Shown one piece after another: positions 10,019 to 56,158 of a DNA stretch of 64,000 nt. The notes beneath the pieces were generated by a model. It was given only the letters and a program-made list of their open reading frames with translations. It searched no databases and had not been told where the DNA came from. Origin of the DNA: Hirudo medicinalis (taxonomy: Eukaryota; Annelida; Clitellata; Hirudinida; Hirudinidae); assembly GCA_011800805.1 (NCBI GenBank), contig MPNW01000144.1, positions 20,259 to 84,258 of the forward strand, written 5' to 3'. Position 1 is the first letter of the stretch. Every line of letters starts with the position of its first letter. A program made the translations under genes and the position numbers.

Positions 10019-13000
10019 ATGGATAATGAAGACAAAATTAGGAAAATAGAAGCGGCGAAACGAAAGGTTGATTTTACTTTCGTTTTAGTGTTATTGGTTG
10101 AAAGCGTTTATGTTTATGCTGCGTCTTAGCTTTTTACGTGGCAGTTAACTAGCTTTTGCGATGTTTGGTCATCTTTGAAACATATGTGCAGGTGTTTTAG
10201 ACTAAACGAGTTTTTTAAAAGATAAAAACTTTGATGAATTGTGTACTTTATATTTGTTATATTAAAGCAGACGTCGTTGACATTGGTCATGGTGTAACAT
10301 TAACATATTTTGATTAGTAAATCATATCATATCGTTTTTAAGGGATTTATCTGTTTTGTCTTGTTCTTGAAACATAATGAGCTTCATATTAGTATGAAGA
10401 TACCATCCATCTTTAATTTATTAACTAGTTATTTTTATATTTGACAACAGCCTGTTTTTGCCTTAATTGTTTATGATCATCTACTTAAAATGATTAATTG
10501 CATTGATGAGAATTTTTCCATGAATTGATTATTGTCAGTAGTCTTCATTTTTCTAAGTAAATTAATGCTATTAACATGATATATTTCTTAATTCCTTGTG
10601 AAAACATGTCAAACCATGATGATTTTTGATTAAATGAAAATCATTGAATCATTTGATAGCTGGAAAAACACAAGAAGAAACAATTGGCTTTAAGCTTGAG
10701 TAGCACCACTCAAGTTGAAGCTCATTTTGAAGGAAGGAGCTCTGTGAATCCAACCTATGACAGACATCTTATGGCTTCTTCAGAAACTTCTTTATCTGTG
10801 AGTTTTTGCTAATGAAGTGTTACATTTTGAAAAAAGTTTGTTTCAATATTTGATAAATACTGAATTACTAATTGACAAAATGCAACAATTTTGGAATAAT
10901 GAACAGGCTACTAATGAAACGCATACTTAAACTTGAAAAGGATCATTGCTTATTTCTAATTTGTCAAATCAAATATTGTAGTGTTTCACCACTGTTTTTT
11001 GTTTATTTGTCAATCCTAAAACCCATAGGAATTTCCTGAAAATACATCATCCTGGTCAAATGAAAAAATTATTGAACTCGAAGAAATCTTGATCGGAAAG
11101 CAATCAGTCATCGATTCTCTGATAGAAGAAAATGAAGCTCTTAAAGCGAAACTTACGTCCGATGTGAGTTGCTCAAAATTTGTCGAAGTAGTTCTTTGTT
11201 TTTGGAAGTAAGGTTTGCTTCATTTTCAATTGCTTTATTAATCACAAATGTTTTCAGGATGTTAACGTAAACGACGTCGAGCTGCCGGTTCAAGATAAAG
11301 AAGTATTGAATTCTGTTGAAGAATATAATTTTAAGGTTGGTTTGGATCAAAAGAACAGAGTTTTAATAACTAGTTTGATAACTGTTTCTTGCACATACAC
11401 ATTTTCTTTAAAATGATTTTCCATTATCATATATTTGTTAAGTAAAAAAATAGTTGAGATCCTACTTCGATGTAATTGCTAGCTGACCGAACTGGAGTAT
11501 GCCTTAAAAGAAAGAGACGACGCCATCGGCAGGCTGACGGGCAACGTTCAAAACCTGACGAGAAACAGGGACGAGCTGCAGTTGGAATACACCAGTCAGA
11601 TTGATCAACTCACAACGCACGTTCACACTCTCCAATCACAGTTGAAACAGGTTTAAGGATGCCATTCTTTGTTTTTAATAATTATTCGTACCTGTCGTCT
11701 TTCAAGTATTCACATGAACATTTCTTTTCCTCAAGAGTTTTGCTCTTTCCCAGAACTAATTAGCATTTTTTAGTCGTCTAATGGATTTATTTGTTTGAAG
11801 GGCTGAGTTTCAACTTATTTTTAATGATTAAAATGTTGATAGGCTGGACAATGGCTTCACAACCAGATTGGTGAATCTTCAGCTTTGGCTCTCATAGAAG
11901 CAAAGGATGAAATTCTGGCTCTCCAGAAAGACTCATTGCAGAAAGAGTCACAGTTGAAGGCACTTCAGGAAGCCATCAGACAACGAGATACTGCCATGCA
12001 AACCCTGGTCATTCAAATTAATGAAAACAATCTCAACTATACGAACATTCATAATGAGATTCAAATCTTAAAGGTACAACTCGATGAAAAGACTGAGCAA
12101 CTTGCAAGGTACGAATCTGTTGGGCTCGACGGAGTCCGAGACGTCCAAACCGGAACGAGTTCGGAGGTTTACGACCAATTCAAGGAGTCCCTTAGAAGAC
12201 AACAACCTTTTGCCTTCAAGGATGTGGAGGGAATATCATATGATGAATTTAATGTCATGATGGAAAGAAGTCTTTCTGCACTAAGAGCAGAGCTGGATGA
12301 ATTTTATGGAATTGAAATAAACAAAATCAAAGACTGCCTTAACTCTCAACACCAGAGTGAACTACGGAGGTTGAAGACTGAAGTTGTCCATTTGGAGGAG
12401 GAAAGGTCAAGGTTTTCAAGTCAGGCCTCAAAATGGCAGGAACAGTATGTTTTACTGAGCCAGCAAAACATTTCTACCTCTGATCTTGTCCAAGAAGTTG
12501 GCAACGTACTCACAGAAAACATTCGACTCAACCAGCTAGTCGATGAGCTGAGGGCTCAAATTCATGTTTCTTCTTCAAAAATGACATCCACTGAGCTTAC
12601 TAGTCAAGCATCTCAAGCCATTGACATGAGTTCATTAATGGCCTTTGAGAAAGGTTTGCAAGAGCTTGAAAAATTAAAATCTGAGAATTTGAAAATGGAG
12701 AAGACATTTTACAGCAAGGATCAGTTGATACAAGGATTGGAAGAACAAATTATGAATTTGAAGGATGATTTGAGGCTGTCATATGATAAAGAGAAAGAAG
12801 CCATTAAGGAAATGCTGCAATCAGAATACTTCCAAGCCCTTCAGAAGAATAAAGAGGAAATTGAAAAGTTGTCTCGGGAAAAATTAAAACTCTCAAAAGA
12901 AGTTTCGTCCTGGCAACAACAATATATTCTTCTTAGTCAGCAAAATGTTTCTAGTACTGACCTTGTTGAACAGATAGGCTCTGTTGTCACAGAAAACATC

Positions 13001-16000
13001 AGATTGAATCAGCTTGTTGATGAGTTAAATTCAAAATCAGTTCTGAGATCAAGAGAGATGTTAGTAACTTCTGATAGTGCCAAACAATCTTCAAGCATTG
13101 AAGGATATGAAATTGATGCAAGTCTCAAGAAAGAGTTAGAAGAATTAAAAAGAGTGAAACATGAAAATGAGGCCTTAGAAAAGACATTTTTTACAAGAGA
13201 GCAATTTGATGCAGAATTGCAGGAAAAGTTTGATGCCCTGAAGAATGAATTTATGGAGATGTCAAAACATGAATTCAATCAGGCACTCTCTGATGTTACT
13301 GATGATTGTAACTCTCGAGTATCTAAGTTGAAGGACGAACTTGAAAACACCACCTTGCTAAAGCAGAGAGTGGATAAAGAACTTGCTTCATGGAGAGAGC
13401 AATATATCAAGTTGAGTCAGCAAAACTTATCACATTCTGACCTGTTAGAAGAAATTACCAACCTTAAGAATGAAAATTTGAGACTGATCAAATCACAAGA
13501 AACTGTCATTAAACAAAAGCTTTTGACTTCAGACAAGGCATCAGAAACTTCATCTATGGTGGTGACTCAATCAAGCCAGTGTGATTTAAAGACAGCACAC
13601 GATGATGAATTCAAAAGTTTATTCTTCACAAAAGAGCAATTAGATGATGAAATTGAAAGGCATTTGCTAGAACAGAAATCAAATCTGGAAGGATATCATG
13701 CCAAGAATATGTGTGACATTAAAAAAGAAATAACTTTTGACTTCAATAGAGATAGTGAAAGGTTGAAAAGAGAGCTGAAGGCCATTTCTGAGGAGCGGGA
13801 CAAATATTCTGAAGAAGCTAGACTTTGGCAAACTCAGTATTCTAATTTAAGCAATCAAAGCCTAATTCAGGATAATTTGGAAGAGCAGTTAAGCCTTTTG
13901 AGAAATGAAAATAATTGTCTGAAAGTTACCATTGAAGATTTGAATTCTCGTGTCAATTTTTTAACCGCTGATTTGAAGCAGAAGTCGTTAAAACATGATC
14001 AAGAAATGAGCGCTGCTATTGAAGAAAATAATAACCTCCAGTCAACCATAAGTTCTTTGAATGATACCTTAAAATCTGAAAAGGAATCCAAATTAAATTT
14101 CTGCAAGAAGATGGTAAGCTTGCAGGAAGAACTCGAAACACTCAAGCACCAATGCAATGAACTTGGAAAACATGACGAAGAGATGAGGCATGCCAAAGAA
14201 GTCTTAGAGTTTGAAATAAGGAGCCTAAGAATCCAACTTGAAACTTCTGAAGATGAAAAGAAGTTATTGGTTACAAAACAAGCAGAAGAAATTAACAGCC
14301 TTGAGTCATCATTGAGATCATTGCAATCCGATCACGTATCTCAGATGGAAAAATCAGAAAATGAATTTAATCAGAAAATCTTTGAGCTTCAATCTCTTCA
14401 TCAAGTTGAATGTGATCAGTTGAGGTCAAAACACCAGGGTGATGTTGACAGTCTCAACATTTTGATGACTCAGTTGAATTCTAAAGCCATAGCCATCGGC
14501 GTCGAAAGAGACGACACCGAAAGACATCTTGGCCAAGTTATCGAAACATTGCATCGTAAAGTTTCTACTTTAGAAGAAGATTTGAAGGATAAAAGTGACA
14601 AATTACAAGACAAAGCAAAATTAGAGACGACTTTAGAAGAAACAAAAAGTTTGTGCGAGGCCAAAATTACTGCATTGACCGAAGAGCATCAGAACTCTCT
14701 CCAAGAGCTAAAAGACAAACTTTTGTCATTTAATCAAATGCAGTTGAAGTTAATAGAAATAAGCGAGCAATTAGAAAGAGTTACCAAGGAGAGAGATTCG
14801 ACCATGGAATCTCTTCAAAATGTTTATTGTGAAAAAGTCGAACTAAAGCTAAACTTCGACAAGTTGGCATCAGAAAAAGAAAGGCTCCACAAGAAAGTGA
14901 GCAAATTATCAGATAAAAATAAATTCCTGGCAATGGCAAAGGCTACTCTGAATAAGTCAGTCAGTCTGAAGTCTGCAAGTGCATGCTCTTCTCATGTTAC
15001 CTCTGAGCCATCTGTTTCTAGTGATTTTGAACAGTCTGTGAATTTCATAACAGACCAAGAATATAAGGAACTGTTGGAGGAGAAACAGGTTCTTCAATCT
15101 GAACTGATCGAGTGTGTGCCAGAAAGTGTCATTGTCAATGTTGGCTCGAGGGTTGTCATTCCGAAAGACAAGAAAAGTGCCTTCGAAAAGTTAGGGGAGA
15201 CACATGAAGACATCCAAGAAGATTCTCATACTCTCTTAAATGACCTGAAAACTAAGCATGCCCTAGAAATGCTTCAAGCAAAGAAGAAGCAGATTGCATT
15301 GATTGAGAAACTACAAACATTCATGGAATCACAGATAAAGATGGAGACTCTTCACGAAACCGAATCTCAGAAGCCAGCTTTAAAATCAAAAGAGCATGAG
15401 AATGTTGACAAATTTTCAGGTAGTACATCAGAAAGAATGCAGAATAGCACAGAGTCTCCAAAGAGAGACTTTTCCACTCAGTGTTCAGAGGAAATTAGTT
15501 TACTTTGGGTAAAAACTTGGCTAAAAAGAATTATGATATATTTCGAAGATGAAAATAAGTTGCTGCTAGAGTCTGGCGATCAAGCTTATCACAAAATTTT
15601 ATCAGAGCTTTCTGAAAAGATATTAGACTTCAAATCTGAATTGGAACAATTTTCTTCCCAACAAATGATGCCTGGTGGCAAAGACGTCTCCTGTGATACT
15701 GATGGTCTTACTTCATATTTACTCGATGATAATGAAGGTGAATCGAAAGAATCAATTTCACAGATGGCCTTGGAGTTTGAATATAATCCGATTGGCTTCC
15801 AAGATATATATTTGGATGATTATTCAAGTACAGATGAAGTTTTAGTTTCTGATCTGAATCCCCTGTATGAATCCATTAAATTAACTGGTAAAAGTGAGCA
15901 TGCGATGCTCGATGAAGAACACAGCCCCAAGAAAGTTGTCAGTCATGCTCGTCTTCTGGAGATTCAGTACTTAAGATCACAACTTTCAAAAGCAACTGAA

Positions 16001-19000
16001 AAATTGCAAACATTTGACCATGAAAAAAATGTCATGGCTGCTGAGTTTGACATGAAATTGTTGTCTTTAATGGAAGAGCATGACATGAACAAAGTATCTT
16101 TAATGAATGAAGTTGAAAGCTTGAATAAGGAAGTAGGTGATCTAACTCAAAAGCTTAAACAGAATAATTTGAATTTTGAAAGAATTGTGGCAGAAAAAGA
16201 TTTAGATAATGATAATAAAATCTCAGAAATAAGGAGGATTGAGGAATTGCATAGGCAAGCCTTCAGTGATACAATTGCAAAACATGAAGAAAAGGAGGCT
16301 GCACTCAACCATGCTTTGTCCACTAGCAAAATGCAAATATCAGATTTGGAATCAAGGGTTGAAGCTGTTTGCAAAGAAAAAATTACTTTGGAGCAGGAAT
16401 TTCTTAATGAAATGGAAGAATTGATTAAGGAACATGATTCCAGGATAAAGAGTCTCAAGGAAAGTTTTGCTAAGGAAAACAGGGAGATGTCATCAAAGTT
16501 GAATGAATATCAAGAGAAAATGATAAATCTATCAGATGAATTGGAACTTTTTCAGTTGGACAACTTAAGGTTGTCTGAGACATTGACCAACATGAAAGCT
16601 GAAGCAAATTCTTCTCAAAGTGTGTCAGCTGAAGAGACTTGGGCGATGCGTTTAAATTCCCTGGAAGAAGCAAAACTTGACATTGAAATGAGCCTCGAAA
16701 GTGCTAAGGTAGATATTGATAAATTGACCATTGAAAACACCAAGTTATGCCACGAATTAGAAGGATTTAAGAATAGAAAAGTAAACAGTGTTTCTGTTGA
16801 AGTCGAGACTGATGCCATGTATGGTATCAGTGATGATGTTACGAACAGAATTCTGTGCCTTAGAGAAGAAAAGGCCCTATTAGCTAGCATGGTTGAAAGG
16901 CTGACCAATGAAAAAGATCAGCTGCTTGTTGCTATGATGTCTAGAAATCAGCATCTCGAATTTGATCTGTCCAATATGGAATTGGAAGACGATGAAGTGG
17001 AAAGGGATGAACGGTCCGACGATCCGAGGATAAAGCTTCTTGAAGCCGAAAAGGAGTTATTAGCTAATATGCTTGAGAAAGTTAGCACTGAAAATGAAAA
17101 GCTGTTATCTTACTTAAAGCAAAAAGAACATGTTGAGGTAGATGATGCTGTAGGAAATGAATTAAAAGGTGATGCCTTGCTTGCCAAATTGAAGAATGAA
17201 AATGTTCCGACGGTGGATCCCGATCGAGATAGTCCTGCATTTTCAGATCAACTGGAAGCTTTTCAGACGCTGGAAACGGAAAAGAGAAGTCTTGAACTAA
17301 CAGTTGAATCATTAAATTTGCTTCTTAATGAAAAACAACAAACAATTGAGTTACTTACAGGTCAACTTGACTCCAAAAATCAATATGCTGAAAACAAGTT
17401 ATCACTTGATGTTCGTGAGTTGTCAAATGAGTATTCCCGAGAACTTTTGCAAGTGAAGAATGATGGCTCAGAATTGTTGGCATTAAGTCTTCCAGAGAGG
17501 GAACAATCTGTTGAATTGTTGATAAACCAGTCCAAGGAATTTACAGATGAAGAAGTGCTGGCTTCAAAGTTACAAGGCATCATCGAATGCAAAACAAAGA
17601 ATTTGAGTCAAACTTCAAATTTAACATCCACAAGATGCAACAACATACAAGACAGTTTAATTGAATTGAGACAACAATTAGCAAGTGGGATAAAGAATCT
17701 TGCTCCTGAAAGTGTAGAAAGTTATGATATTAGTACCATCAATATTGATGAGCTTATTAAACTATTTACTAAGTTTGTAAATGAGGCAAGTATTGCCAGC
17801 ATAGCATCTTTCCCCAGTTATCCTGAGGGGCATGTTAATCCTCAGACAGAAAGAGTGGTTGGAATGAAGATTTTGGCCAGGAAGAAACCTAAAGTTGCTG
17901 TTGTTTTTGAGAATTCAGATCAACAAAAATTTGATAATTCAGGATTTGCGACTTCTAGCATATCTGATATTGAGCTTCAGAAACTTGCCAATTTTAATGC
18001 CATTTCTGACAACGACATTATTTTAGACACATCCCTTGATAATCTTATGGAACTAAAATCTAATGATCAACAGTCCAAGTTGTTAGCCCTAAAAAAAGCC
18101 AAGCTCTTAAAGTCTAGAAAATTACAGGAGAAAAATGAAGAAAAAGAATCTCTCAAGAAGCAAGTGGCTGATCTCATAGAGTCAAAGAGAGCTCTAGAAA
18201 ATGCAAATCAGGTCTATGCAAAAGAAATTGAAACACTTAGTTGCCTGTTATCTGAAAGAGATTTGCTTCTACAACAGCATTACGAATTCAAGACTTTGAA
18301 TGAAACTCAAACACTTAATAATGCTAAAGAAAATGAAAACAAGGAAATATGTACTTACAAGGCACAGATAGATGATCTTCAGGAAGAGATTTTCAATTTG
18401 AAGTCCGAGCTGCAAAACACGTTACGTGATATTGAAGAATATGAGCAGGACAAGCAATACTCTCTTAATGTCTCAGAAAGGTTAAAGAACATGTATTCAG
18501 ATGATGGTATAGGAACCAGTGTAATAGAAAGTAAAAATGAAGAAGTGGACAGTTTGCTGAATGCCTTCAGAGAAGAATGCAGTTCTTTAAAAGAAGAGCA
18601 ATATAACTTTGTTTCCATAAGAGCAAATCTTGAAGATTCTATTAACAAGTTGGAGTTGAATTTACAGAATAAAACTTTAGAGCTTGAACAACTGTGCGAG
18701 TCTTTAGAAACAGAAAGAGAAGCAAGGGAATTGGCAGAGCAGATTATAGAGGAAATGAAAGCACATGATATGAAGGCTAATGAAAATGATCAGCCATTTA
18801 CTGCAGAAGAAATCTCAGATCTAAAGATAGAACTCCAGAGAAAATGCGATGAGCTGATGCATCTTCAATTTGAAAAAGATTCACTAATCAAGCAAACTGG
18901 TGAAAATAACATCATAATTGATATGCAAGCTAAGGAAGCTGAGGAACTTCAAAAAATGTTGGATTCATCTAATGAGAAGCTATCAGAGTACATCCTGAGT

Positions 19001-22000
19001 GCCTCTCAGAAAGCAAACGTGATTGAAAGCTTGCAGTTCCAATTGCAATCTCATGTTGCACCTTCAGGTCTTGTAATTCCATTAACTGAATGTAAAGTTT
19101 TTGAAAATAGCTTGGCATCAACCATACAAAATTCACCTGCATTATCTAGCGTTAGTGATCGAGTTGAAGATGTGACATTGGATCTTAATGCTCTGTCCGT
19201 AACTAAAATCGAGCATGAATTCCCCACAACAACTAATTCTGAACATTCAGTGCCTCAGAATAAGTTGATCAATGAGGAACTTTCTTTGGCTGATGAATTT
19301 CAGACATCCATCGATCTTGAAAAGCAAAATCAAGAACAACAGAGCGAGGGTCTTGATCGTAACCAACCCTCCGAATTACATTTGATCGATGCCAACGATT
19401 CGGAAAAAGCAGTAACAAAAATTGAACAGCCTAAATTGTTGGAAAACAATTTGCACGAATCGACAATGAATTTTTCTGAAATAGAAATTATGTTGACATT
19501 AAAAAATGTTGAGTTAGAATCTGTCACTAAGGAGCTGCAAAATTTTGCCATTAGATGTGATGACTTAACTAAGGAGCTTCTTATTATTCAAGAAAGAGAG
19601 AGCAAAAAAGATGAAGATATAACGAAGATGAAGGACAATGTCTCAAAGTTGAATGACAATATTGTTTTGATAAAGGAGGAGAATACCTTGAATGTTGAAG
19701 AAATTAATCTACTTAAAGAAGAAATTAACAAATTGAGAGGTACCTGCTTGCAGTATGAAGATGATAAGCTACAGAAATCAGCCAAAGAAAGTTCTTTTGA
19801 AAAAGAACTAAATGCTCTTGTGGATAAGACTTACATTTTAAATCAAGAGTTAAATGTAAAAATGGAATGTGAACATGTTCTAAGACATGAGATTGAAGAA
19901 CTCAAGGAAAGAAATTCTTTCCTGGAAAGAAAGCTAAGTGAAATTGTATCAGCTGAAATGAAGGATCAAAACCAAATTAAAGAAAGATTGAAACTTGTGG
20001 CACACTTAGAAGAAGAAATTATTAATTTGAAGAGGAGCTTAGAAAATGCAGAATTAATCTTAAGCAGAAACCAGGAAGAAAAACTTCACTTGGAGCAAAT
20101 GGTGAAACAGCTCAGTGAAGAGGCACAAAGCAGAAGGATTGAATTGGAGGAAATGACAAAAACTGTATCTGAAAGTGAACAGGCCAAAGCTTTAATGAAA
20201 AATCAGATACATGAATTAGAAACTAACCTAGCAAGAGAAAAAAGTGATCATTCAAACAATTTAGAGGGTTTAAAGATTTTAGAACAGGAAGTGTCTCATC
20301 TCAACTTGAAACTAAATGAAGAGCAGTTAAGATTTCAGATATTTAAAGAAAAACATGACTTACACCTTGTGACTTCTGAGGATCAGACTAGGCAGCTCCT
20401 TGAGCAACTTAGCATTTTGGAAAAGGACTTTACTGCAAAATCAGACGATTACCAAAAGCTAAATCTGGCGTTGGAAGAATGTAAACAAAATTTGGATGAC
20501 AAATGTCACTACATTGAAAAAATTGATGTAGATAACAATTCATTAAAAATGCAGTTGAATGATTTTGCAAGTGTTCAACAAGAATTACAACTTCTTAAAG
20601 AAACCCTTGAAAATGAGAAAATTGCAAAAGCTGAGTTAGTAGATTTACATGGAAAAGAAGTTTCACAGATCAAAAATGAAATAGAACATTTGAAAAGTGA
20701 TTTGAAATATAAACTTGATGAGTGTCTCAGCTTGCACTCGGCCATTCAAGATTTGCACGTGAATTTGGATACAAAGTGTGAGAGGGCTAAAAGAGCAGAC
20801 GAAGCTAATACTTCCCTGAAGGTGCAAATGGATTCACTTGAGGAAGAATTAACTGTTCTGAGAGAAAATCTTGAACTTGAAAAGAGAGCAAAGCATGAGA
20901 TGGAAATCGGTCATGCAGCTGATGTTATTCGAACGAAGGCTGAACATCAAAAATTAAAAGAGGAATTGGAAGCAACAGCTGAAAAGTGCAATAATTTGCA
21001 ATTGGATCTTAATGTCCTCCAGGAATCATTAAATGAAAAATGTGCTATTCTGAAAAGCATTGAGGAGGAAAACATTTCTTTGAAAACTCAAATTGGGAAA
21101 TTGGAATCTTCTCAGAAAGAGTTACTAACTTCTAATGAAGTTTTGGAGCATGAAAATCTTGTCAAAGCCAATTCTGAATCTGAAATGACAAATAGAGTGC
21201 AAGATCTTGAAAAGAAAATGAAGGAGAAATGTGATGACTTTGAGGCAGAAAATACTTCTTTGAAAACCCAACTCGGGGGATTTGTTATTTTACAAAATGA
21301 ATTGACAACTGTCAAAGAGGATCTTCAAAATGAAAAGAATGCCAGAGCTGATTCTGAAAGTTTTTGTGCAAAAGAGGTCTTGAATTACAAGGATAAAATT
21401 GAGAACTTGGAAAGTGAATTAAGATCAAAGAGTGATGATTGCTTCAGCCTACAGGTGCTTACCCAAGAGCTGCAAAAGGATTTAGATGTAAAGCATGAAA
21501 TTCTTAAGAAAACAGAAGAATCTAACACTTCTTTGATAGCACAAATTAATTCTATTGAAGAAGAATTAATTGTACTTAGAGGAAGTCTTGAACATGAAAT
21601 GAATTTGAGACAAGATTTGGAAATGGGTTATGCAGCTGATATTATTGAAATGAAAGCTGAATACCAAAGATCAAAGGTGGAATTGGAAGCAAAAGCTGAA
21701 AAGTTTGATAATCTGCAATTGGATCTTAATGTCCTCCAGGAATCATTAAATGAAAAATGTGCTACTCTGAGAAGAATTGAAGAGGAAAACCTTTCTTTGA
21801 AAACTGAAATTGAAAAATTGGAATCTGCTCAGAAAGAGTTAATATCTTCTAAAGAAGATTTGGAGCATGAAAATCTTGTCAAAGCCAATTTTGAATCTGA
21901 AAGAACAAATATTGCACAAGATTTTGAGATGAAAATGAAAGAGAAATGTGATGCTGTTAAATCAATTGAAGAAGAAAATGCATCTTTGAAAGCACATGTA

Positions 22001-35037: not shown

Positions 35038-37227
35038 CCAATATACAGTTGTTGTTGTTTTTTTGTTTGTTTTTAAATGAACTGACTCAATCATGAATTT
35101 CATTTTTTTTAGTTGGACTTGTGAGGTGTTTTTAAATTATGTTGAAAGTCTTTCTAATTGAGTGCTTATCTTTAATATTGACTAATTTATAGTTTGTTTT
35201 TTGTGAAAAATCAGATGTCAAAGTGTGATTTTGTTGATTGCTTCTGCAATTATTCTCTTATTTATTTGTATATATTCACTTTTCCAAGGTTTTTGTCCAA
35301 TTTTGATAAGTCATCTTCATTATGTCCACTTTAAATATCTTAAATGGTTGTGGCATATTCTTTTATTGATGTTTTAATATCCTTATCTTGTTTTAAAAGA
35401 ATGTTTTCCATTTATAATTTTCCCTCTAAGCCACCTTTTGCATTAATCAAGGTTAGCAGCCCTGGTATCTTAAAAAAAACAACTCTTGTTTCAAACATGA
35501 CTTGCGCTGCTCCATATTTTGTCAGAATTAGGGTCCAATTTGAATAAGATGAAGCTTATTGAATTTTTTGTGAACTCAGGCAAATAAATTTCTTTTGCAG
35601 GACCACTTACTTCTCAGACTGACCATGCACATTCTGATTGTGATTCTTTCAGTACTAATAACATTTCAACATGATTCTTGGCTTGGCAAATGCAGATGAA
35701 AAACATTTCACTTGTTATAGTGGTTAATGAGTATTTTGATCTTACTACGAATAGCTGTTTAAAATAAACTGTAGGTAATTGGATTGTGATATTTGCCTTT
35801 TACTGGCTCTCTCCATATCTGGCTTTGAGTTCGACTAATGTGATTTCATTTTCAACTTTTGTCTGTAACATCTAATGTTCATTACTAAACTATTTTTCAT
35901 TGTGTAATCTGAAGCTTATAATTAATTAATTAATTTATTTATTGGTTATATATTGCTGTTATCACATCATTCACTTCTTGTTACTAGCTGGGGTCTTGAC
36001 ATGCTAACCTTGTTAATGTAACTTGTTTTAACTTTTAACCATTCCATGCAAAACCTCAAATAATATGGTTTGAGTTATTGTAAATGAATAATTGTATGTT
36101 GTACATAACTCATGATGCCTCACTTAAGGGAAGCCATGTGGTATTTTTGCTAGATATAAAATAAATTTAGATTAAATTGAGGCTAGAAATTTTTCTATAA
36201 ATAAATGTTTAGCTTGTGTTCAATTTGTTTTGACATGTTTTCTTAAATGTGGAAATGAGTAAAGGTTGGCATGAGCATGAAACAGTTGGCATGTTAGCTT
36301 GAAAGTCATTAGTTCACTAATTGATGACAGTTTTAATATTTTATTTTAGTTTTAAAATATTATGTAATTTTTTTGAAGGTCTTGTTTCGTCCGTAGAACT
36401 CATTCTAGATTAGTGGAAAATCATTTTAAATAATATGTGCTAGATGGGTAATTAAGAACAGAGGATACTAGGACATCACCAACTACAAGAACATTCAAGT
36501 ATTTCAAATCATGCCAAATATGTAGCAGAGATTTCCTTAATAATTTGCATAGTCTATTGTTTGAGAAGTATACTAATTATGCCTCAGAATGAATTATGAT
36601 CTTAATCCAGTTATATGTATGAGTAGCCATCTTTTAAGGGTACAAATTTTTTATTTTTATGTTTAGCTATCTCAACAAACAAAACCTAGGAAACAAGATT
36701 TCTGTGTAAATCAGTAATTAGATTAGAATAAGTAAGATTGGTCGCAACAACCTGTTGACTAAGCCAGCAGCGTAAGCGTTTGTGCGCATTTCGGACATGC
36801 CTGAACAGATTTTTGGACAGGTATATCCACTTTGGTCGGAAATTGAGGTCCTGAGTCAGCCCTCAAAACGTGCTGGATTGTTTCGTTGATGAAGCATTCC
36901 TATGATTACGATGGATTCGAGTGAGCCAGTTTGCGAGAGTTACTTGTTGAGGTAATAGTTCCTTAGAAGCAGGGGATTTATTGGCGACGAGCGGATGCTT
37001 AAGTTCCTCTACTTTTAGCAGATTTTCAATTGAATAAAAACATTTTGAAATTTTTAATGACGTACGGATTAAGCGGTAATATTTTTGGCGACCAATTTTA
37101 AAACATTGGAACCCGATAGGTAATCCCCAACAAACGCGGTTTCTCGTTCTTGTGTACAAATGTGTTGTTAGTTACGCATATTTACATCGAAGTTATGATC
37201 CGAATGTTTATGTAGATACCACACAGA
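35038..37227. other. Gap between the two AKAP9 units: 3' UTR, then probable promoter
   Basis: AT-rich DNA without a supported exon. The left half contains AATAAA at 35583, 35763, 36160 and 36200, compatible with a 3' UTR for the upstream unit. The right part should contain the promoter and 5' UTR of the downstream unit if that unit is transcribed on its own; no TATA box is obvious. A minus-strand open frame at 36863-37159 shows no family resemblance and no splice context. Confidence 0.5.
35583..36205 (+). terminator. Cluster of AATAAA polyadenylation signals after the 5' AKAP9 unit
   Basis: Hexamers at 35583-35588, 35763-35768, 36160-36165 and 36200-36205, 546 to 1,168 bp after the stop codon. 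In AT-rich DNA some are expected by chance, but four in this span behind a stop codon support transcript ends here. Confidence 0.4.
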
Positions 37228-46100: not shown

Positions 46101-49100
46101 ATTAATTTGATTTAGAATTTAACCGCTTCTAATGAGCCCGATTTGATAGTTTTCATCTTAACATTACATTTTCCAATGCTTGTTGGACTTTTTAATAACA
46201 TCTCCCAGATTCGATTCAAAACCTTTCAATCAACTGGAAATTTGTGTGTTTATGTCTTGGATCATTGTTGTTGTTGTTGTTGTTAATATTACCACTATCA
46301 TCATCATAATTATCACTAGATTTGATTGGCATTGTGGTGTCTTTTTTTTAGAATTCTTTTTCTTATAATCCGTAAGGTCGGCCTTGCTTTGGTTAGCAGA
46401 GGATAAATTATTGCTTTGTTGTCAGTTTGAAATTAATTGTTCGCTATTTTGTCTGGAATTCATTTGTTGCTTTCCTACGAACGCAATGCACAATCTCATT
46501 CGATTGGATGAAACTGCTTGTTCAGAGCTGCTCCGAGAGAACAACCAGCTGAACGAAGAGTGCGCAGACCTCAGGGACAGACTGCGCAGGGACAAAGAGA
46601 GGTTCGAGTCTCAGTTGACGGAGCTGGATGCCAGCAACTGCCAGCTGCAAGCTCGTATCGAGGCCCTCCAAAAGGAGAATGTCGAAGCTGCCAACGACAA
46701 CAAGCTAAGAGTCGAAGCCCTAGAGAAACAGCTGACAGTGAACAAGAAATACATTGAGGTGATTCGACTAACATGTGATGATTCACTGGTGAATGAGTCT
46801 GTGATGGTTGTTATGATGATGAATTTCAAGAATCAGTTTCTTATATTGAGACACTGAATGAATTTATCTATCTATCCATCCATTCATTCATCCACCTATT
46901 ACACACTTGTATGATTGTTGAAATGCTCGTTGGTTGTCATTGTTTGTTCCTGCGTGCAGAATCAATCGATTGAAAGGGAGCAGGAGATTGATCGCCACCA
47001 AGAAAAGGTCAAAGAACTGGACTTGGTCCTTGTTGAGAAGGAACAAGTTGTCAGGAAGAATCAGAAATTGAAAAGTGAAGTGAGTAATTTGTGCTCAAAG
47101 TGACTGTTATGACTGTTGTTCTTGTTGTTACTTTAGTCGGTATTGTCGTTGTCATTGTTAATTACTGCAATGATGTTGATGAGTCTAAAACACTGGTTTT
47201 AAATTAACAAATGATTTTTACTGAATAACACAACAACGCAATTATTTCTTTTTAATTTCCACCTATTTAAGTAACTATAATGATTTAATTATCCATTGGA
47301 AAAATTCCTGATGATTCATTATTCGCAGAGCTCTGATATTTTGTTAGGTTAACCTTTAAATGTCTTGCATATTTGCAAAGCAATAATTAACTTCTCTGAT
47401 TGGCAATCCTTGTTATTGTAACCAACCTGAAACTTCACTAGATGCTTGGGTTAACTGATGACAGATCACTGCCTCTTGTAAGTGACATTGAACGTCTGTA
47501 ATGTCTTTGGCCTTTTTTGATGTCACTTGCATGCATTTTTCTTAATCGATTGAAATGCCATCGATCGCCAATGCTTCTAATGTGCTGTCAATCAAATTTG
47601 ATAAATGTTATGATTACTCGTGCCTCTCGATCCCTGGGTCCTACCTGATCAGCTACCTGAGATCAATTGATTGCTTATTGGCAGGATTTTAGTTGGTCTC
47701 CAAGTTCCAAACATGGTTTTAAGTCACCACCCCTACGACTAACCTTTTAGCTCGATTGAGGATTGTCAAAATGTGATTCAGAATTCTCATCATAGTCTCT
47801 GCTCAGCAATGAGCCGATGCAAACCTTTTTTTTTGTTCGTTTTTCCGATTTTCGTGTTCTTTTGATTTGAGTTGTTGTCGTGATGAGTGCTAGAATTATT
47901 ACTGAGCGAAAACTCCGTTTCAACGACGACTAAGTTTAGGAAGTCATTACATTTTGCTCATCCGTTTCATTTACTCACGAATGAAAGTCGCTTGATCGTC
48001 ACAAGATGCAAGAGCTGGAGGAGCAGCTGAGCAAGAAGTTGAATGCCTGCATGAGTCTCGACGAGGAGGTCTCCAGGTTGAAACAGCTTCTGAAAGGCAG
48101 GAACGAAGAAGTGGCACGACTCGCAGCTTCAAACAAGCTCTTAGAAGCAAACCTCAACAACTTTTATGAGAAGGAGGCTGCTTCAACAAAGGTGAGTCGT
48201 CCAGGCAGCCCTGGTGTCATAATGGCAATGATAATGACAATGGTGATAGTAATGCTAATGGTGATGGTAATTAGTCTAAATATTGTTAAAGTAACGCATA
48301 TTCTCTTGAAACTTGGAGTCCATTCGATTCTAAGTGTTTGTAAGCTGACTGTGTGGTCTATCAGTGCCAGGTGTGTGCTTATGTCCTTCTAAACCGACTT
48401 AGTCTTGCAAGATATTCATTCAATGTGAACTATTGCATTATTGAATTATTAATTTATTTTCCTCAGCTATCTGCTTTGATTGTTATCAATTTCATTAACT
48501 ATCGATATCATAAATCTAGGACTCCTCCGAAATGGATTCAACCATAGTGTCCAAGGACAATGAGGCGGAGTTCCAGGTAGTCCAGGAGATGGAATCTCTC
48601 AGGATGACCTTGTCGAAGGTCGAGGAGGCATTGTCCCTGGCCAGGAATTCTGAGAAGAATTTGGAAGAGAGGAATTCACAGCTCGAGAAGGAGGTGGCAG
48701 AGCACGAGAAATATGTGAAGGTGGGCGTCATGAGGAGTTCTCAAATGTTGAATTGATTTTTTTTAGGATTATTGACACATTTAAATGATTTAAATGACTT
48801 ATGAATAATTGATATGAATATTACAATTACTTGTAAAGTCAACAACTTTGAGGCAACAGAATGAGTTGATGTATTTTCGTTACAGGAGCTGAAACGAAAC
48901 TATTTGATGCTAGAAAGGCGTGAGGAGGAACTGAACGAGGAGCTGACCTCCCTGAAGATGGATGCCGAGCAGAGGTGTCTGGAGAGGCACGCCATGAAGT
49001 ACGAGGTCGACGACGTCAAGTCCAACCTTTCTGGGTTGTTGAAGGAGGAAAAAGAAAAGAATGTAAAGCTAGGAAGGGAGGTTGGTTGAATGCTTGAATA

Positions 49101-52100
49101 GTAGACTTTCTCATTATTATTTCATGGCTATTGTATCCATTGTTACATTTGTGCAAATTTAGAGGGTTGCAGTACTGGCAGCGGCTGTAATGTGTCGTGT
49201 TTAAACCCAGCTTGCACTGCAACGAGCATCCTCAGGCAGGAGTGCCGAGCGTTTAAGTGTTTAACAAAAACTGCCTCTGAAGCTAAGCTTGCCATGCTTT
49301 ATAAATGAACTTCAATCAGGATTTGTCAGTGGTTTTAATGTGGAAGGTTTTGTAATGACAAACATGATCTAAGTTACTAAGTTCACTATTTGGCATTTAC
49401 ACTTATTTGTTTATTTGAAGAATGCTCTTCTCTCCCTGGAGCTTGAAGAAATATCTATTAGGGTTGCCCTGCAGGCTGAAACTATTAACAAGATGACGAA
49501 AGAGTTGGAGACTCTGAGATTGGAAAAGGATCAATTCAACAATACCATCCATTCTCTCGAGAATCAGAATTCAGAGAATCAGATTAAAATTCTAGTCAGT
49601 ATACTTGAACTAACATCTTTCTATCTTATGACTTAGTGGTGCTCCATATTGGCTTGATTTTGAAGTCTAAATCGCTTGATCAATGCTTCGATTAGGAACT
49701 GTCAGCAAAAGCCAGTCAGGCCCAGCCAATAATAAAATTCGATCTTGCCAAGGAGGAGGCAGATTTAATGAAAGGATTGGAAGATGATTATGAGATGCTC
49801 AGGGCTGAAAATAGCAGACTCAAGGAGCAGCTCAGTGCCCATGTGGGTTTTATTGTGGAAATGTATTGTTTTGCTCCTGTGTCTAGTGTTGCTAGAAGTG
49901 ATGTTGTTACTGTTATTATTATTTTTATTATTATTGTTGTTGTTGTTGATCCTACAGATTCCCAATGGCAATGCATTCTCCTTGTTCTCCTCACTGTCTC
50001 ATGGAAGTCCAGAAGCAGTCAGGAAATCGACAGGAAGTTTGCCCGGCAAGAGTTTCAGCTTGGAGGAGAGCTCGGTTCTCAATGCTCCGAGGAAAAAGTT
50101 GAACTCCCCGAGTCTGGCTTCCATGAATGAAGACGACAAAAACAACTCTTACTCCAGCAGAAGAAGCAGTGGTGGAGTTAGAAATGACCTTGCTGGCAGG
50201 AAGGTGGTGTTTGCCAACGACATCCAGTCATCTCATCACGAAAGGGTTGGTCCGTTGTTGAAAAATGCACCTTTTCGTGTATTTCCAGCTTACCAATAAT
50301 TGAGCACATTTTTGCTCAATTGTTGATTTGCTTTAATTTAATTAGCTTAACCCAACTGATTTCATAATTAGAGAAAGAGACAATTCGATTTAAAAGTTCT
50401 CTGAGAATGAGAAATTGGATTCATTATATCTTTGCATGAATAACAGCAACAGTGAAGCTAACACTTCCATCTCCAGGTCATTGAGTCCATCCTGTCAAAG
50501 TTTGACATCCATGACCTTGAGGAAGTCGAAGAACTCGTCGAGGCAAAGTCGTCTGCAGTTCTCGAACTTACGACCAGGCTGGAACGAGAGCAGCAAGAAA
50601 AAGTTGCCGTCCACCAGTCGCTGACTTCACTTGAGGTTTTGTAACTTGTTGTGTTGTGATGTAATCATGAGTGTTATGAACCATGGTTTTGAATATGGAG
50701 GTGGTTCCAAGATAAAACTTAAACTTGCTGATATTGTCTATCACAANNNNNNTACTCTCAATATTCAGCATTAATCACAAAACACATGTAACCATAAATG
50801 CTATCATATTTTGACTAAACGTTTAATTTTCAGAACAAGATCAAAAATATAGAGTCTGAGTCACGTGAGTTGAGAGGTTCTTTGGCTTCAAGGGAGGCGA
50901 AAGTTCAAGAGTTGAGGGCACAGTTGGAGGTGGTGAACATGTCCCACCACGATGAGCTTTGCAATCTCAGCAGAGCCATGAGTGTGAGTTGTGCTCATAG
51001 ATAATTATGAATCCAGAAAATAGCAAATTACTATTTGAATGTAAGTTTACCAAAACATCATCGATAGGAAAAGGACGACAACATTTCAAGCCTCGCCTCT
51101 CGGCTAGAAGAACTGTCTCAAATTGAAGAAAAGAAAAGTCAACAAATAAACCAATTGAAGTCAAAGATGGCCTCCCAAGAAGCAGCAATAAAGGAGATGG
51201 AAGCCTTGAAAGCCCAGCACGAGCAACTTCTCGAGAAATGCACCCAGCTCGAAAGTCGCTTCAGGGCCGTCATGGCCGAAAACAGGAAGCTGATGCACGG
51301 AGATCTCGAGAAGAACGAAGTCGTCGAAGGTTTGCGTCGGGAGTTGAACTCCGCCAGAAAAATCTCCGAGGATGGCGAAAGGAGCGTCTGCGAAGAAATG
51401 AAACGACTCGTCAAAGAGAATGAGGCCACCAAGCAGAAGTTGCAAGCTGTGAGTTATTTTTTTTTAAGTTGCAAATGCATGAAATCTTTTGCTCGAAGCC
51501 AACGTCCCTTTTGGTCGATTGCAGGCTTACGGACAGCTTAAAAGCTCGGAGGACAGAGAACAACTGAAACTGGAGAGAATGAGGCTCATCCATGCCAAAG
51601 AGCTTCAGAGCCTGAAGATCGGCCACCAGGAAGAAATCCGAAAACTCGAGGAGGAGCACAATGATGCCTTAGAAGTCAGAAGCACAGTGGGAAGGACTTC
51701 TGTCAAGCCAGAAGGTGAATCATGATGATGTGTCACGACCGATGTAATCAAATGTTATTGCTCCTTATAAATACCGACCATTTGTATTTTAAATCTGGTG
51801 TTCCTTGCTAATGCTGTGGTGCTAATGTTGCAGACGTCAACATAACGCTCGCCGAATTCACGACAATTTTGCCAGAGACGTCCTGCGATGAACTCTCCGA
51901 CGACCTTCAGGTTTTTTAGATTATGATTATTATTGCCATTTTATTCAATTAACCAATTGAATTATATTATCGGTAATATTATAATATTTTCCAAATCCAT
52001 TTCGTTGGGAATCTCTTTTCATCCGTTCCGATCCGATGTTTCAGTCCATCTTGAAGAAACTCCACCAGGAAGCGATGAAGGTTCTCACACTTTCTGACTT

Positions 52101-55100
52101 CAAGTACCTCGAGCAGCTGGAGAGGCAGGGAGCCGAGTTGGAAAGGTCGAGGGTGGAATGGAACAGCGAAAAGCAGAGGATGATCGAACAACAGATGGTC
52201 TGTTTGTTAATTATTTTGCTATGTATTGCTATGTTTGAGTCAAAAAATATTAGGTGGCGATGCCAATCTAAGGTCGGTTGCTAATTGATATTGTTTTAAT
52301 TGATTGTCAGCTGGTTAGTAATAATGATGCGTTAATACAGATCGACTCGTTATGAATGACGAATAATTATTTCCAATGTGAACATTTGCAAAACATTGCA
52401 GGGCCAAATCAAATCGCTGGAGGAAAAGATTGTTGAACTCCAGTCGAGTCTAACAGAGGAAAGACAGAATAGTCAAAAGTTTGGCAAGTACTTGGAAGAG
52501 GGAGAACACAAGTTGAAGAAACTGAGAACAGAGAGGGAGAAGATTCGAGCGAAACTCGTGGCCGAAAGGGAGGCTTCCAAAGCCCTGACGAGGGGATTCG
52601 AGGTGAGTGCCTTCTGTTTTGGTTCGTTTTGCCTTCTTGGGGAGAATTGAAACATCATGATTTTCTTGTTGTCGAGTTTTTAGGATCGCATTTCTTGACA
52701 TTTAAAAGTTATGTGGTGACGAAGTAAATGCTGAAGAATGATTACATAATTGATGCACGGATAATGTGATGTAGTTGTTGCATATATAATTCAATAATAA
52801 GCAATTAATTATCCATCCATCCATTTACATCCGTTCCACTTGAAGTGTCAGAGGGACGAGATGGAGAGGGAGTTGAACCTGCAAAGGGAGGAGTTGAGCG
52901 ACTCGAATGCCCAGAAGGAGCTGCTTCAGAGGCAGCACCAAGAGATCAAGATGAAACTCCACAACATCGAGGAGCAGCTGAGGAGATCGAAGGATGCCGA
53001 AAGAAATGTGAGCGATGAAGAAGACTGCATTAGGATCCGAGATGATGACAAAACCTCCTTTTCGTTGCAGGCCGGACCATCTCCTGCCGGCAAGCAAATC
53101 ATGTCACTCGAGCTCATCGAACAGACTCTCAAGATGATAACGTCTCTCATCAAAGGAAGATGGTCAGACCATTTACTGATGATCAATGTCGGAAAGTTTT
53201 GCAATTTTAGTGATTGAATTGCGTTTATTAATTCAGCATCGAAAATGCGCTGGAGGCTCTGAGGTGCATTCAGTCGGACGTGCATGAAATACTGCGAGAG
53301 TACAATGAGGTGGGTGCTTGATCAGTTGTGCATTTTTTGCACGAGTGCTCTCTGTTCTGCCTCCAAATCTGCTCTCCTGCATGGCCTGCACAAGCATAGG
53401 ATCAAATGATTTCTAGTGACTGGTTCTCCAAACTTGATTCAAAAACTTTTAAGTATTTAATTGGTTAACTAACTAATTTACCTACCCCTAACTTATTTTC
53501 CATCGCTAATCCTACTCAACTCAGAAGTCTGGAGGCTGCAATCTCACTAAAGAGGTCTTGAATGGAAAGATGTTGGAGCACAATGCCACCTTGCTCAACC
53601 ACATCCATCAGATTTGTAACGAGAAGGCCGAACTGGTCGAGAAGATGGAACAGCTCAGGAAGGAAGCTGGCAGTCAGAGGAACTACAAACAGCTGGTGAG
53701 TGTTTCCCTGCAGAAGTGGCTCAAACTTTGACGGGCATCAAAGTTCGACTTTGTTAGGAGGGATTTGCTAATGAATGTAAAAGATAAGTTATGAAAATTT
53801 ATTGGTTCTGAATTCTGAGCTTGATTTTTCCAGTTGGAGTCGTTCGATGACGAGCGCAAAAGACTGCTGGAGGAAAACAAGATGCTGAGTGATAATCTGG
53901 TCGAGGCGAAGAAAGAACTGAGGTTTGCATCGTCAGACGACCGAAGGAAGGAGGTGAGATTTAATTGAACCCACCTGATCGGATAATTGAACGGAGGATT
54001 TCCAGTGTATCGGATTCAATTTAAAGTATTGCGAAAACATAGGAATTTTTTAAAAAGACTCACGTAAAAATGAATTACTTTCCTGAGGTGTTGATTGCAC
54101 AAGCTGATGAGTTAAACACTAAAAGAGCCGTTGTTTAAGTTGATGAGCGATAATTCGTGAGAGTGAAATTATGGAGCAGGTTCATTTGGTGCCTTTACGT
54201 TTGACAGCAGCTTGTTCGTGGCGAAGTCCTGCTCGTTCAGTTCATCTGGGAGGTATTTACGAAACGAACGAAAACATTTGTAGTTGCTTCTGTCGGTCGA
54301 GCTTGTAGCTTTTAGTCATGATAACGTGTCGTGTCGTCTTTGGAGCTCGTGTCGACGACCACGACTGTTTCGCGATGACGACGGTGTCGTTAAGTGATTT
54401 CAACCAATCGAAATGAAGCTTCAGTTTATTTGCTTCTGTCCATCTCTGCTTATCTTTTTGAGATAATTAATGTTTGTTGAGTTGATTTTATTTCATTGAA
54501 ATACAATATTGTGGTTATTGATTCTTCATCTTCATCTTAATAGTCGGCTTAATCTATGAATCATCAATTACGTTGTTGTGACTCGAGCAGTTAATGCTTT
54601 CATGAGCTAAATTCAAGCCGCTCAGGCCTGGCTTGAAACTTTGGTTGAATCATTTCATGAGTTTGAAGAGATTGTCTTTCTTCAATTGTAATATATCATT
54701 TAATGTATACATAATAATATATAATATATATAAATATATATATAAGTATGAGACAGAAGGGATATTTATGGTCGACAATGATTACAACTTATTACTACCA
54801 ATTGTTACCCGCTACTAACGCATTTAAATTACCGCCAATCTCGACAGTTGCAGAAACTCTACGGCAAGTACTTGAGGGCCGAATCGTTCCGGAAGTCCCT
54901 CGCCTACCAAAAGAAATACCTCCTCATGGTGCTGGAAGAGTTCCAGGAATCTGAGCAGGCCACTCTCAGGGCCATTGCTCGCATGACCTCGCATGCGCAC
55001 ACGAGGCACAGCTCGGGATGCGACGATTCCGTCTGCGACGAAGGCAGCGGCATTTTGAGCGGAATCAGGAGGGACTTCCAGAGGAGCATCAAGTTCTCTT

Positions 55101-56158
55101 CTGGAAAAGATCAAAAGAGGCACAACAACCTCGGACCCCTGGAAAGGTTCAGGAGTGCAGCGAGGGTCGTCGTTGCCGTGTCGAGGTGGGTCGGAATGAA
55201 ATGCTGGTACTGGTCGATCAATTAACGGTTAACTTACTAACTTATTATGTATTAATTATTAATTGCCGGTGGCTTCAGTAATCCGAAGATGTATTACGTT
55301 TTTAGAAACCTGTTTTTTTTTTAGTTTTAGAAGAAATTACAGTTTCTTATAACAGATGCAAAATTTCAGACAGGAAACATCGATTATTGTGGGAGTAAAA
55401 TACAATGTCTACAGAATTTTTAAGCCATTAAATCTACTTTTAGGCTGAAATTCCTCGCAAAGAAATGGCGGAAAACAGTTCAGCAGGGCCCGAGAGCGAG
55501 CAATTCGGAAATACTGCCCGGTAGTCTCGTATTTTATTTAGTTATTTCTTAAAACGTGGATTTATTGGCCATCGTTTGCATTCAAACAGCATCTCTTCCA
55601 TCTACATCTGCATTCCCGTCGTTCACCAGCATCAGTTCCCTGCTCGACTCTCGAGGAGCAGATGGATCCAATGTCAGAATTTCATCGATGCAAGGAACGT
55701 TCGAGGAGAGAGTTTTGAAATCGTATGCCAACCTGTCTCGGCATCTCCAACGAGCCTCGCACACCGACGTGGCCCGCGACCAAAACGCCGATGGGGCTCT
55801 CGGAGGCTTGAGTCGACCGACGGCGTCGGCCACGGCCATCCTCCAGACCTCACCCTCGGAAAGACCGAGCGCTAGAGACAAAAAGGCGATCGGCTTCACT
55901 CCTCCCAGTAAACTCCCATCAAAAATGTGGGTTTGATTGCCGCTCGCATTTCTTCGTTTAACTTTAACGGAGTTGGTTAATGTTCTCTAATGTTGCGAGA
56001 TTCGAAGGACGTCATTCATTTCGTGTCGTTTCAGACGCTCGGATGAACGCGACCTCGAGGATGCAGATTCTTCAAACTATCGTCTGCCTCCTCCAGTCAC
56101 TTCCAAAGAGTACATGGAACTGGTCAAGAATCTCAAGAAAAGGCTGGATGATAAGTAG
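37228..56158 (+). CDS. AKAP9: PACT-domain centrosomal scaffold, 3' part of an AKAP9/pericentrin gene, about 36 exons, about 2,855 aa
   Basis: All coding junctions are GT-AG and the summed exons keep one frame to TAG at 56156 (segments below list them). The C-terminal PACT domain targets AKAP9 and pericentrin to centrosomes and binds calmodulin. Seen here are KLYGKYLRAESFRKSLAYQ, then FRSAARVVVAVSR joined to LKFLAKKWRK, and a final EYMELVKNLKKRLDDK resembling the AKAP9 end. Upstream, YIENQSIEREQEIDRHQ and the following coiled coil match a conserved AKAP9/pericentrin block, as does SILKKLHQEAMKVLTLSD. The start is uncertain: ATG 37228 with a 5-codon first exon, or ATG 37465. An Asp/Glu-rich region (40231-42470) has no counterpart that I know in vertebrates. 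The unit may be an independent gene, an alternative-promoter isoform, or simply the 3' exons of the upstream unit. Confidence 0.88.
40231..42470 (+). other. AKAP9: Acidic Asp/Glu-rich exons of the PACT unit
   Basis: Exons 40231-42243 (671 codons) and 42348-42470 (41 codons), both phase 0. A coiled coil (residues encoded by about 40231-40680) is followed by at least six Asp/Glu tracts, at about 40741-40845, 41146-41214, 41389-41460, 41506-41550, 41665-41715 and 41934-41975, separated by 20-70 less biased residues, then coiled coil again to the donor. The tracts are built from GAT and GAC codons in microsatellite-like runs. I recognise no domain; the region is probably disordered. Confidence 0.85.
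42471..43742 (+). other. Long intron of the PACT unit
   Basis: 1,272 bp without a supported exon. It contains the tRNA-like repeat copy 2, a short ATC microsatellite at about 43377-43396 and AT-rich unique sequence. The minus-strand open frame at 43408-43629 has no family resemblance. Confidence 0.6.
42780..42910 (+). repeat. tRNA-like short interspersed repeat, copy 2
   Basis: GATTCGAATCC at 42837-42847 and TGCCATCGTGAGAGGC at 42852-42867, the same order and near-identical sequence as copy 1 at 1703-1736. Preceding TTGCTCCC and following GACCGTGCGGGAGCAC also resemble copy 1 (GTGCTCCC and GACCTTGTGGAAGCAC). It lies in the intron 42471-43742 of the PACT unit. Confidence 0.6.
45821..45835 (+). 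other. AKAP9: Candidate 15-nt micro-exon
   Basis: A 15-nt segment sits between a strong acceptor (CTTGTTCTTGTCAG) and a GTAGTT donor. Included between exons 45371-45586 and 46526-46758, both flanked by phase 1 junctions, it adds five codons (GKSAE) without changing frame. Skipping it is equally in frame, so it would be an optional cassette. Confidence 0.4.
45871..45972. repeat. 20-bp tandem repeat in intron, five copies
   Basis: The unit GTAAGATTATAATTTATATC repeats with period 20 from 45871. The first three copies keep GTAAGAT and the last two diverge. It lies 36 bp after the candidate micro-exon. Confidence 0.9.
47080..47987 (+). other. Long intron of the PACT unit
   Basis: 908 bp with no open frame of note and no clear repeat. 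I see nothing functional beyond the splice sites (GTGAGT donor; acceptor GAATGAAAG or, 18 nt later, GTCACAAG). Confidence 0.6.
50747..50752. other. Assembly gap (6 N)
   Basis: Six undetermined bases inside the intron 50636-50833. The gap is short and does not affect any exon, but the true length of missing sequence is not known. Confidence 0.99.
51834..53953 (+). other. AKAP9: Exons upstream of the PACT domain
   Basis: Exons 51834-51910, 52045-52197, 52402-52602, 52846-53162, 53237-53309, 53525-53695 and 53834-53953. Exon 52045 encodes SILKKLHQEAMKVLTLSD, resembling the short conserved helix that precedes the PACT region in AKAP9 and pericentrin. Exon 53525 (LTKEVLNGKMLEHNATLLNHI) matches the coiled coil just before the PACT domain in AKAP9. 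Exon 52846 contains a possible in-frame mini-intron at 53008-53070. Confidence 0.88.
53008..53070 (+). other. AKAP9: Candidate 63-nt in-frame retained intron
   Basis: The segment begins GTGAGC and ends CCTTTTCGTTGCAG, good donor and acceptor sequences, and its length (21 codons, no stop) leaves the frame unchanged whether it is removed or kept. Its translated content (VSDEEDCIRIRDDDKTSF) is less coiled-coil-like than its flanks. Confidence 0.5.
53954..54847 (+). other. Long intron before the PACT exons
   Basis: 894 bp. It includes a short (TA)n-rich stretch at about 54705-54745 and otherwise unique sequence. No exon is supported in it. Confidence 0.6.
54848..56158 (+). other. AKAP9: PACT domain and C-terminus exons
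   Basis: Exons 54848-55185, 55444-55520, 55590-55926 and 56035-56158. The PACT domain runs from the first exon (LYGKYLRAESFRKSLAYQKK, then LERFRSAARVVVAVSR) into the second (LKFLAKKWRK) and then stops. The third exon is Ser/Thr/Pro-rich, and the last ends with a short amphipathic helix (SKEYMELVKNLKKRLDDK). The first acceptor is a CAGTTGCAG tandem, so the exon could also start at 54854, losing two residues. In the family this domain docks the protein at the centriole wall or Golgi. Confidence 0.95.

Follow-up and report, generated by a model that had tools for sequence, protein, structure and literature searches.

The leech Hirudo medicinalis appears to carry the AKAP9/pericentrin gene in two pieces. 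We analyzed a 64,000-nucleotide stretch of contig MPNW01000144.1 (hereafter the window, whose numbering is used for all positions given without a contig) and ran genome-wide searches over the 133 Mb assembly. Between positions 10019 and 56158 lie two adjacent units on the forward strand, the first (unit 1) opening with the N-terminal signature of the family and the second (unit 2) carrying the PACT domain. Fission of one ancestral gene into two genes is the reading we favor, with a probability of roughly 70%; the separate transcripts and the promoter activity that it entails are predicted from the DNA. The initial annotation of the locus had left the choice between a fission and the logic of Yotiao, the short N-terminal product of vertebrate AKAP9. 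The evidence now leans to fission on three grounds: strong conservation of the unit 1 tail, a CpG domain for unit 2 that differs from that of unit 1, and a splice donor that could bypass the stop codon of unit 1 but is not conserved at the protein level in a sister protein; the Yotiao logic is correspondingly weakened. We directly observe the anatomy of the locus, the homology of each half, the single copy of the tested parts, the conserved end and the CpG boundary, each of which is described below.

In unit 1 (10019-35037), nine modeled exons join into one open frame of 7749 aa (∼890 kDa) in which all introns are phase 0 and two unusually long exons span 14.0 kb and 6.9 kb; the last exon has an alternative acceptor at 28237, likewise in frame (Table 1). 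Leu, Glu, and Lys are abundant and Pro and Gly scarce, the composition expected of a coiled coil. Four W-x-x-Q-Y-x-x-L-S-Q-Q-N-type repeats, spaced 145-160 residues apart, start at residue 387 (window 12434-13970).

The N-terminal family signature had been assigned to the first unit, and this assignment held. The signature (MDNEDKIRKIEAAKRK, 10019-10066, followed by LEKHKKK from 10660) aligned without gaps to residues 1-23 of Polypterus AKAP9 (P0067) with 9 identities and a score of 55, which none of 20,000 shuffles reached (best 54). Further downstream, the block around LRAELDEFYG (residues 325-368 of unit 1) shares 50% identity with AKAP9 420-463. A three-sequence profile of this block scored P0067 at 30.5 bits, compared to 5.9 bits for the best shuffled or reversed decoy, and reported none of the other eight family proteins in the set, pericentrin P0008 included. 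With a family profile built from 14 AKAP9/pericentrin members, residues 1-1224 of unit 1 aligned to AKAP9 1-1589 (42.8 bits), and residues 2199-2724 of unit 2 aligned to AKAP9 3602-3952 (65.4 bits) and 3963-4059 (47.7 bits); all decoys fell below zero (best -3.8) and no positive-scoring N-terminal match was detected in unit 2. A BLAST alignment additionally placed unit 2 residues 1360-1490 on AKAP9 2139-2269. Judged from these profile and BLAST placements, the N-terminal part of the family protein lies in unit 1 and its C-terminal part in unit 2, with the break between AKAP9 residues ∼1589 and 2139. The remaining ∼6500 residues of unit 1 have no family-profile match. A large protein collection was searched with two stretches of unit 1, and relatives of the rest may exist in it.

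PACT was likewise found in the second unit only, as had been claimed. The PF10495 match of unit 2 scored 73.8 bits in the genome search and 74.7 bits in a protein scan (cut-off 25), and it was the one PACT match found in the whole assembly by a genome search that scores the best candidates only. The last exon of unit 1 (2288 aa) gave no Pfam match, PACT included. Two parts of unit 1 were searched against the genome, the first 499 residues of exon 6 and the C-terminal 329 residues, and each occurs once, the sole extra match being a repeat inside the same exon. Thus, the tested parts of both units are single-copy, on one strand and in family order. The two family ends do not share one protein here: the stop at 35037 stands between them, with one hypothetical in-frame splice around it.

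The stop codon reported between the units is confirmed as a TAG (35035-35037). A protein search with the tail of unit 1 retrieved three relatives, P0125 (99% identity), P0126 (90%), and P0127 (43%), which over their aligned stretches are 98, 76, and 41% identical to unit 1, respectively. P0125 and P0126 end at the same place as unit 1 and P0127 ends five residues later; a stop at this shared end is inferred from where the protein records end. Given these coincident ends, we rejected the idea that the stop at 35037 arose by chance or by a sequencing error. Moreover, 28 of the last 41 residues are identical between unit 1 and P0127, vs 44% over a 619-residue stretch, so that the tail appears, at the protein level, to be among the most conserved parts in this comparison. 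Its tip reads DCGC(V/I)(A/T)ELGTMK..TGCRYH..VEK.R.EL (window 34918-35034), and the C-x-C-x12-C-x2-H pattern within it could be a metal-binding or docking module. We rejected a hidden PACT or other Pfam domain, given the lack of a match. A TSC22 match for P0127 was sub-threshold, a precomputed PF24161 assignment for P0127 was not reproduced on re-scan, and searches of solved structures returned nothing useful. A profile of the last 619 residues of unit 1 matched none of the nine AKAP9, pericentrin and invertebrate PACT proteins compared, nor was the tail found in AKAP9 P0067. Because relatives end there, the tip is conserved and the tail was not found in the nine family proteins, selection in this clade has probably acted on it as a protein end.

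Unit 2 runs from an ATG at 37228 or 37465 to a TAG at 56158, which fits the locus end given in the initial annotation, and is modeled at ∼2770 aa. The fresh ATG with a consensus donor that had been noted is present: a mini-exon encoding MDKSN (ATGGATAAATCAAAT, followed by the donor) is in frame with the exon at 37450. The structure of unit 2 came from a home-made splice and codon model, and its inner exon borders are approximate. Run freely, the model placed the end of unit 1 at 35034 and the start of a new gene at 37465. When gene ends were disallowed, unit 2 became one open frame, from which doubtful exons past 56158 were trimmed; several tiny or doubtful exons of this forced model were then dropped and one exon of the free model added to give the final list. 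One acidic exon (40231-42243) encodes very long Asp/Glu-rich runs, and six Ns (50747-50752) make the surrounding exons uncertain.

To compare the two units at the DNA level, we computed the ratio of observed to expected CpG dinucleotides (CpG o/e), which is 0.41 for unit 1 between 11.5 kb and its stop codon, and 0.83, a mild depletion only, for unit 2, with a strongly depleted stretch and then a CpG-rich block between them (Table 1). When a single change point only was fitted, position 36,701 was the best between 11.5 and 56 kb; its log-likelihood gain was 59.6, and 200 shuffles of the bins never gave more than 17.8. Within each unit, exons and introns have similar values (0.79 and 0.85 in unit 2; 0.40 and 0.52 in unit 1, the latter over 708 bases); the contrast is therefore not a codon effect. 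The best 300-bp window begins 200 bp upstream of the ATG at 37228, and the same layout is seen at the start of unit 1. The upstream 700 bases compared to the body have a CpG o/e of 0.99 vs 0.14 in unit 1 and 1.07 vs 0.70 in unit 2. Many invertebrates methylate gene bodies, which leads to CpG loss there, and gene starts are less methylated. In the oyster, methylation is described as climbing past the start site, staying level over the gene body and falling after the gene end (PMC4378273). A control set of 13 housekeeping starts obtained by family searches (five proteasome alpha and eight CCT subunits) showed an upstream value above that of the body in 11 cases, an upstream value of at least 0.9 in nine and a body below 0.6 in 12. 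What gives the peak before unit 2 its weight is the 1.6 kb of strongly depleted sequence ahead of it and its position at the predicted start; it is not proof. Together, the peak and the change point favor a separate promoter for unit 2, as far as base composition can indicate one.

The four poly-A signals of the initial annotation are present between the units, but they exceed chance only marginally. Including a fifth AATAAA at 37033, the gene strand carries five, vs a shuffle mean of 1.94, and 17 of 500 shuffles reached this count; the opposite strand has seven. We therefore rejected the signals as proof of a 3′ end. Overall, the claim that one ancestral gene appears here as two units gained support from the collinear profile, the single-copy adjacency, the conserved end and the CpG change point, and is partly supported.

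Several observations weigh against a fission. The CpG pattern fails in two of the 13 control starts, both of CCT genes, and an mTOR-like gene on contig C31, whose N-terminus we placed by presumed resemblance, lacks both a clear CpG peak and a depleted body. Of 190 N-free 500-bp bins taken from 12 arbitrary regions, 16 have a CpG o/e above 1.2 (a recount; an earlier tally had left out 44 of 240 bins without C or G and kept two N-rich bins whose values were impossible). Inside unit 2, 16.7% of the 300-bp windows also exceed 1.2 (maximum 2.50 at 45875), compared to 0.6% inside unit 1 (maximum 1.60 at 25675). Given such windows within unit 2 and in arbitrary regions, a lone CpG-rich window is not specific, and CpG content is in any case an indirect, germline-averaged proxy. 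Without constraints, the gene model split unit 2 into five predicted genes, and the single-gene version was a forced one. Furthermore, the highest-scoring donor in unit 1's final exon (34377|GTAAGT) joins 37450 in frame, which would make a fused isoform possible. Finally, the N-terminus was absent from all seven named invertebrate PACT proteins examined, so that a single-gene state in protostomes is unsupported.

This last point emerged from a search with the PACT region, which retrieved 593 proteins, including AKAP9s, pericentrins and lophotrochozoan AKAP9-like proteins. Among the 120 matches listed of these 593, 47 carry the AKAP9/PCNT N-terminal signature in the same protein, all of them vertebrate records and many of them isoforms of a few species. 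Ten of the 120 have the AKAP9 N-domain (LRAELDEFYG-block profile above 12 bits), and all ten are vertebrate AKAP9s. As the signature and PACT share one protein in vertebrate records, the vertebrate state is, on this protein evidence, one gene. The N-terminus missing from the seven invertebrate records may reflect annotation, or a split wider than this clade.

The alternative that survives best, although we consider it unlikely, is a single gene with Yotiao-like transcripts. Here a short form would end at 35037 and a long form would splice from 34377 to 37450 in phase 0, skipping the tail, with an internal promoter perhaps adding a PACT-only form. The break between AKAP9 ∼1589 and 2139 lies near the end of Yotiao, at about residue 1640 of AKAP9, and by a hand-made matrix the donor at 34378 outscores seven of the eight donors used in unit 1. 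However, the donor site encodes Val-Ser here and Val-Asn in the sister protein P0126, where, inferring from the protein, GTAAGT is impossible. The rarity of GTAAGT in coding sequence was considered as a sign of a real donor and rejected, as 23,250 coding bases contain it once, which is not more than in synonymous-codon shuffles (mean 2.5, range 0-8). Nor would one commonly transcribed unit be expected to span different CpG domains, and the tail that the long form would skip is one of the best conserved parts relative to P0127.

Much less probable is an operon, with one promoter at unit 1 and a polycistronic transcript resolved by spliced-leader trans-splicing at unit 2 (acceptor 37449). The phylum uses spliced leaders, the units lie head-to-tail 2.2 kb apart, and an acceptor-like site directly precedes the first large exon of unit 2, but the CpG-rich, promoter-like block and the separate CpG domain at unit 2 argue against it. 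No Rfam family reached its gathering score in the window, and no search of the genome for spliced-leader RNA was made. The least credible explanation is an artifact or false homology, in which the assembly or annotation is broken or unit 1 is a coiled-coil gene unrelated to its PACT neighbor: coiled coils yield spurious matches, the first N-terminal block resembles the N-termini of other golgins and centrosomal proteins, unit 2 contains Ns, and the long alignment of unit 1 to the family scores low for its length (42.8 bits), but the tail and end of unit 1 recur at 98-99% identity in another record and also in two relatives, the N-domain and full-profile matches lie well above heptad-preserving shuffles, and order and single copy fit.

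Under a fission, the ancestral AKAP9/pericentrin gene would have encoded the N-terminal part and the C-terminal PACT in one protein, and this lineage would have acquired a stop codon, a 3′ end and a new promoter between the two parts. The upstream gene would then produce a 7749-aa coiled-coil scaffold comprising the AKAP9 N-terminal region, the ∼6500 unmatched residues and the conserved Cys/His tail, and the downstream gene a protein of ∼2770 aa that bears PACT and the conserved C-terminal region. By analogy with the family, PACT would take the downstream product alone to centrioles. The upstream product could act as a PACT-less scaffold elsewhere (at the Golgi or at non-centrosomal microtubule sites), or return to the centrosome via protein contacts. 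Golgi and non-centrosomal microtubule roles are known for Yotiao and the AKAP9 N-terminus. That the fission is ancient and clade-wide, with the PACT module as its own gene and the N-terminal half as a giant PACT-less scaffold with a newly evolved, conserved Cys/His C-terminal module, we hold at even odds.

AKAP9 and pericentrin combine a signaling and microtubule scaffold and a centriole address (PACT) in one protein. A clade-wide fission, if true, would mean that centrosomal targeting is physically uncoupled from the N-terminal scaffold functions of AKAP9 in these animals, and such a natural split lets one ask which functions require a covalent link to PACT. Unit 1 is a candidate PACT-less N-terminal scaffold whose conserved tail may hold a replacement address. 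The results also suggest that CpG profiles computed from DNA alone may indicate where transcription units begin and end in an invertebrate whose CpG depletion is of the gene-body type. Titles and abstract openings in the literature searched mention no split AKAP9/pericentrin gene.

Table 1. Features of the AKAP9/pericentrin locus (window coordinates).
Feature	Position	Strand	Remarks
Unit 1 exon 1	10019..10066	+	ATG; N-terminal signature MDNEDKIRKIEAAKRK; phase-0 donor
Unit 1 exons 2-5	10660-10797, 11029-11163, 11258-11335, 11483-11650	+	All phase 0
Unit 1 exon 6	11843..25888	+	14-kb exon; frame open to 25906; holds LRAELDEFYG block and WxxQYxxLSQQN-type repeats
Unit 1 exons 7-8	25953-26072, 26146-27801	+	
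Unit 1 last exon	28177..35037	+	TAG stop at 35035-35037; tail DCGC...GCRYH
Candidate bypass donor GTAAGT	34378..34383	+	Phase 0; best of 248 GT sites in last exon (hand-made matrix)
Non-coding interval	35038..36650	+	CpG o/e 0.15; AATAAA at 35583, 35763, 36160, 36200; read as unit 1 3′ UTR/termination zone
CpG-rich block	36650..37450	+	CpG o/e 1.29 overall and 1.95 in the peak 300-bp window (37025); interpreted as unit 2 promoter
Candidate first coding exon, unit 2	37228..37242	+	MDKSN; donor GTAAGT at 37243
Unit 2 exon	37450..38085	+	ATG at 37465 (MDDWEVNE...)
Unit 2 central exons	39339..53953	+	Forced single-gene model; approximate boundaries
Unit 2 PACT exon	54854..55185	+	PF10495 match 54866-55189
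Unit 2 last exons	55444..56158	+	TAG stop; protein ends KEYMELVKNLKKRLDDK

Unit 1 lies head to head with a minus-strand gene (ATG near 9600) that resembles UBE2J1. At 357-1280, the window contains low-complexity runs with His/Ile-type trinucleotide repeats and a TNQQINKP-type tandem repeat. Elsewhere in the assembly, a DNMT1 replication-foci domain was detected at two loci (C27:269358-269956 and C887:14750-15575), perhaps representing two DNMT1 genes. A COX1 piece in the invertebrate mitochondrial code on the 112-kb contig C456 (L005:4203-5069), with a segment repeated around an undetermined codon, is either a nuclear mitochondrial insert or a misassembly. A search for an arthropod cuticle domain detected none, an outcome that falls short of proving absence. 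The 56-kb contig C459 (L006) encodes bacterial-looking genes that we take to be cytochrome oxidase genes and a heme A synthase-like gene, and derives from either a bacterial associate or a contaminant in the assembly.

The leech locus resembles vertebrate AKAP9 (AKAP450, CG-NAP) in the order of its parts, namely the N-terminal start, the block that reads LRAELDEMYG near residue 430 and the C-terminal region with PACT. In contrast to the one vertebrate gene and its protein of ∼3900-4100 aa, however, there are two units here, of which the first alone encodes 7749 aa, with ∼6500 aa that lack a family-profile match and a tail that was not seen in the family members compared. The C-terminal region and PACT of PCNT and of lophotrochozoan AKAP9-like proteins (Solemya, scallops, Lingula, Mytilus) match unit 2. 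Vertebrate PCNT differs in keeping the N-terminal signature in the same protein, whereas the invertebrate records examined lack it. AKAP9 is listed with 16 splice variants (PMC6861388), and Yotiao is described as its smallest transcript (PMC5872362). Yotiao, like the predicted product of unit 1, covers the N-terminal part, lacks PACT, has a 3′ end of its own and breaks off in a similar part of the protein. Unlike unit 1, Yotiao is a transcript of the gene for the long form, whereas the PACT part of the leech locus seems to have its own promoter, and unit 1 closes with a conserved tail that was not found in AKAP9 P0067.

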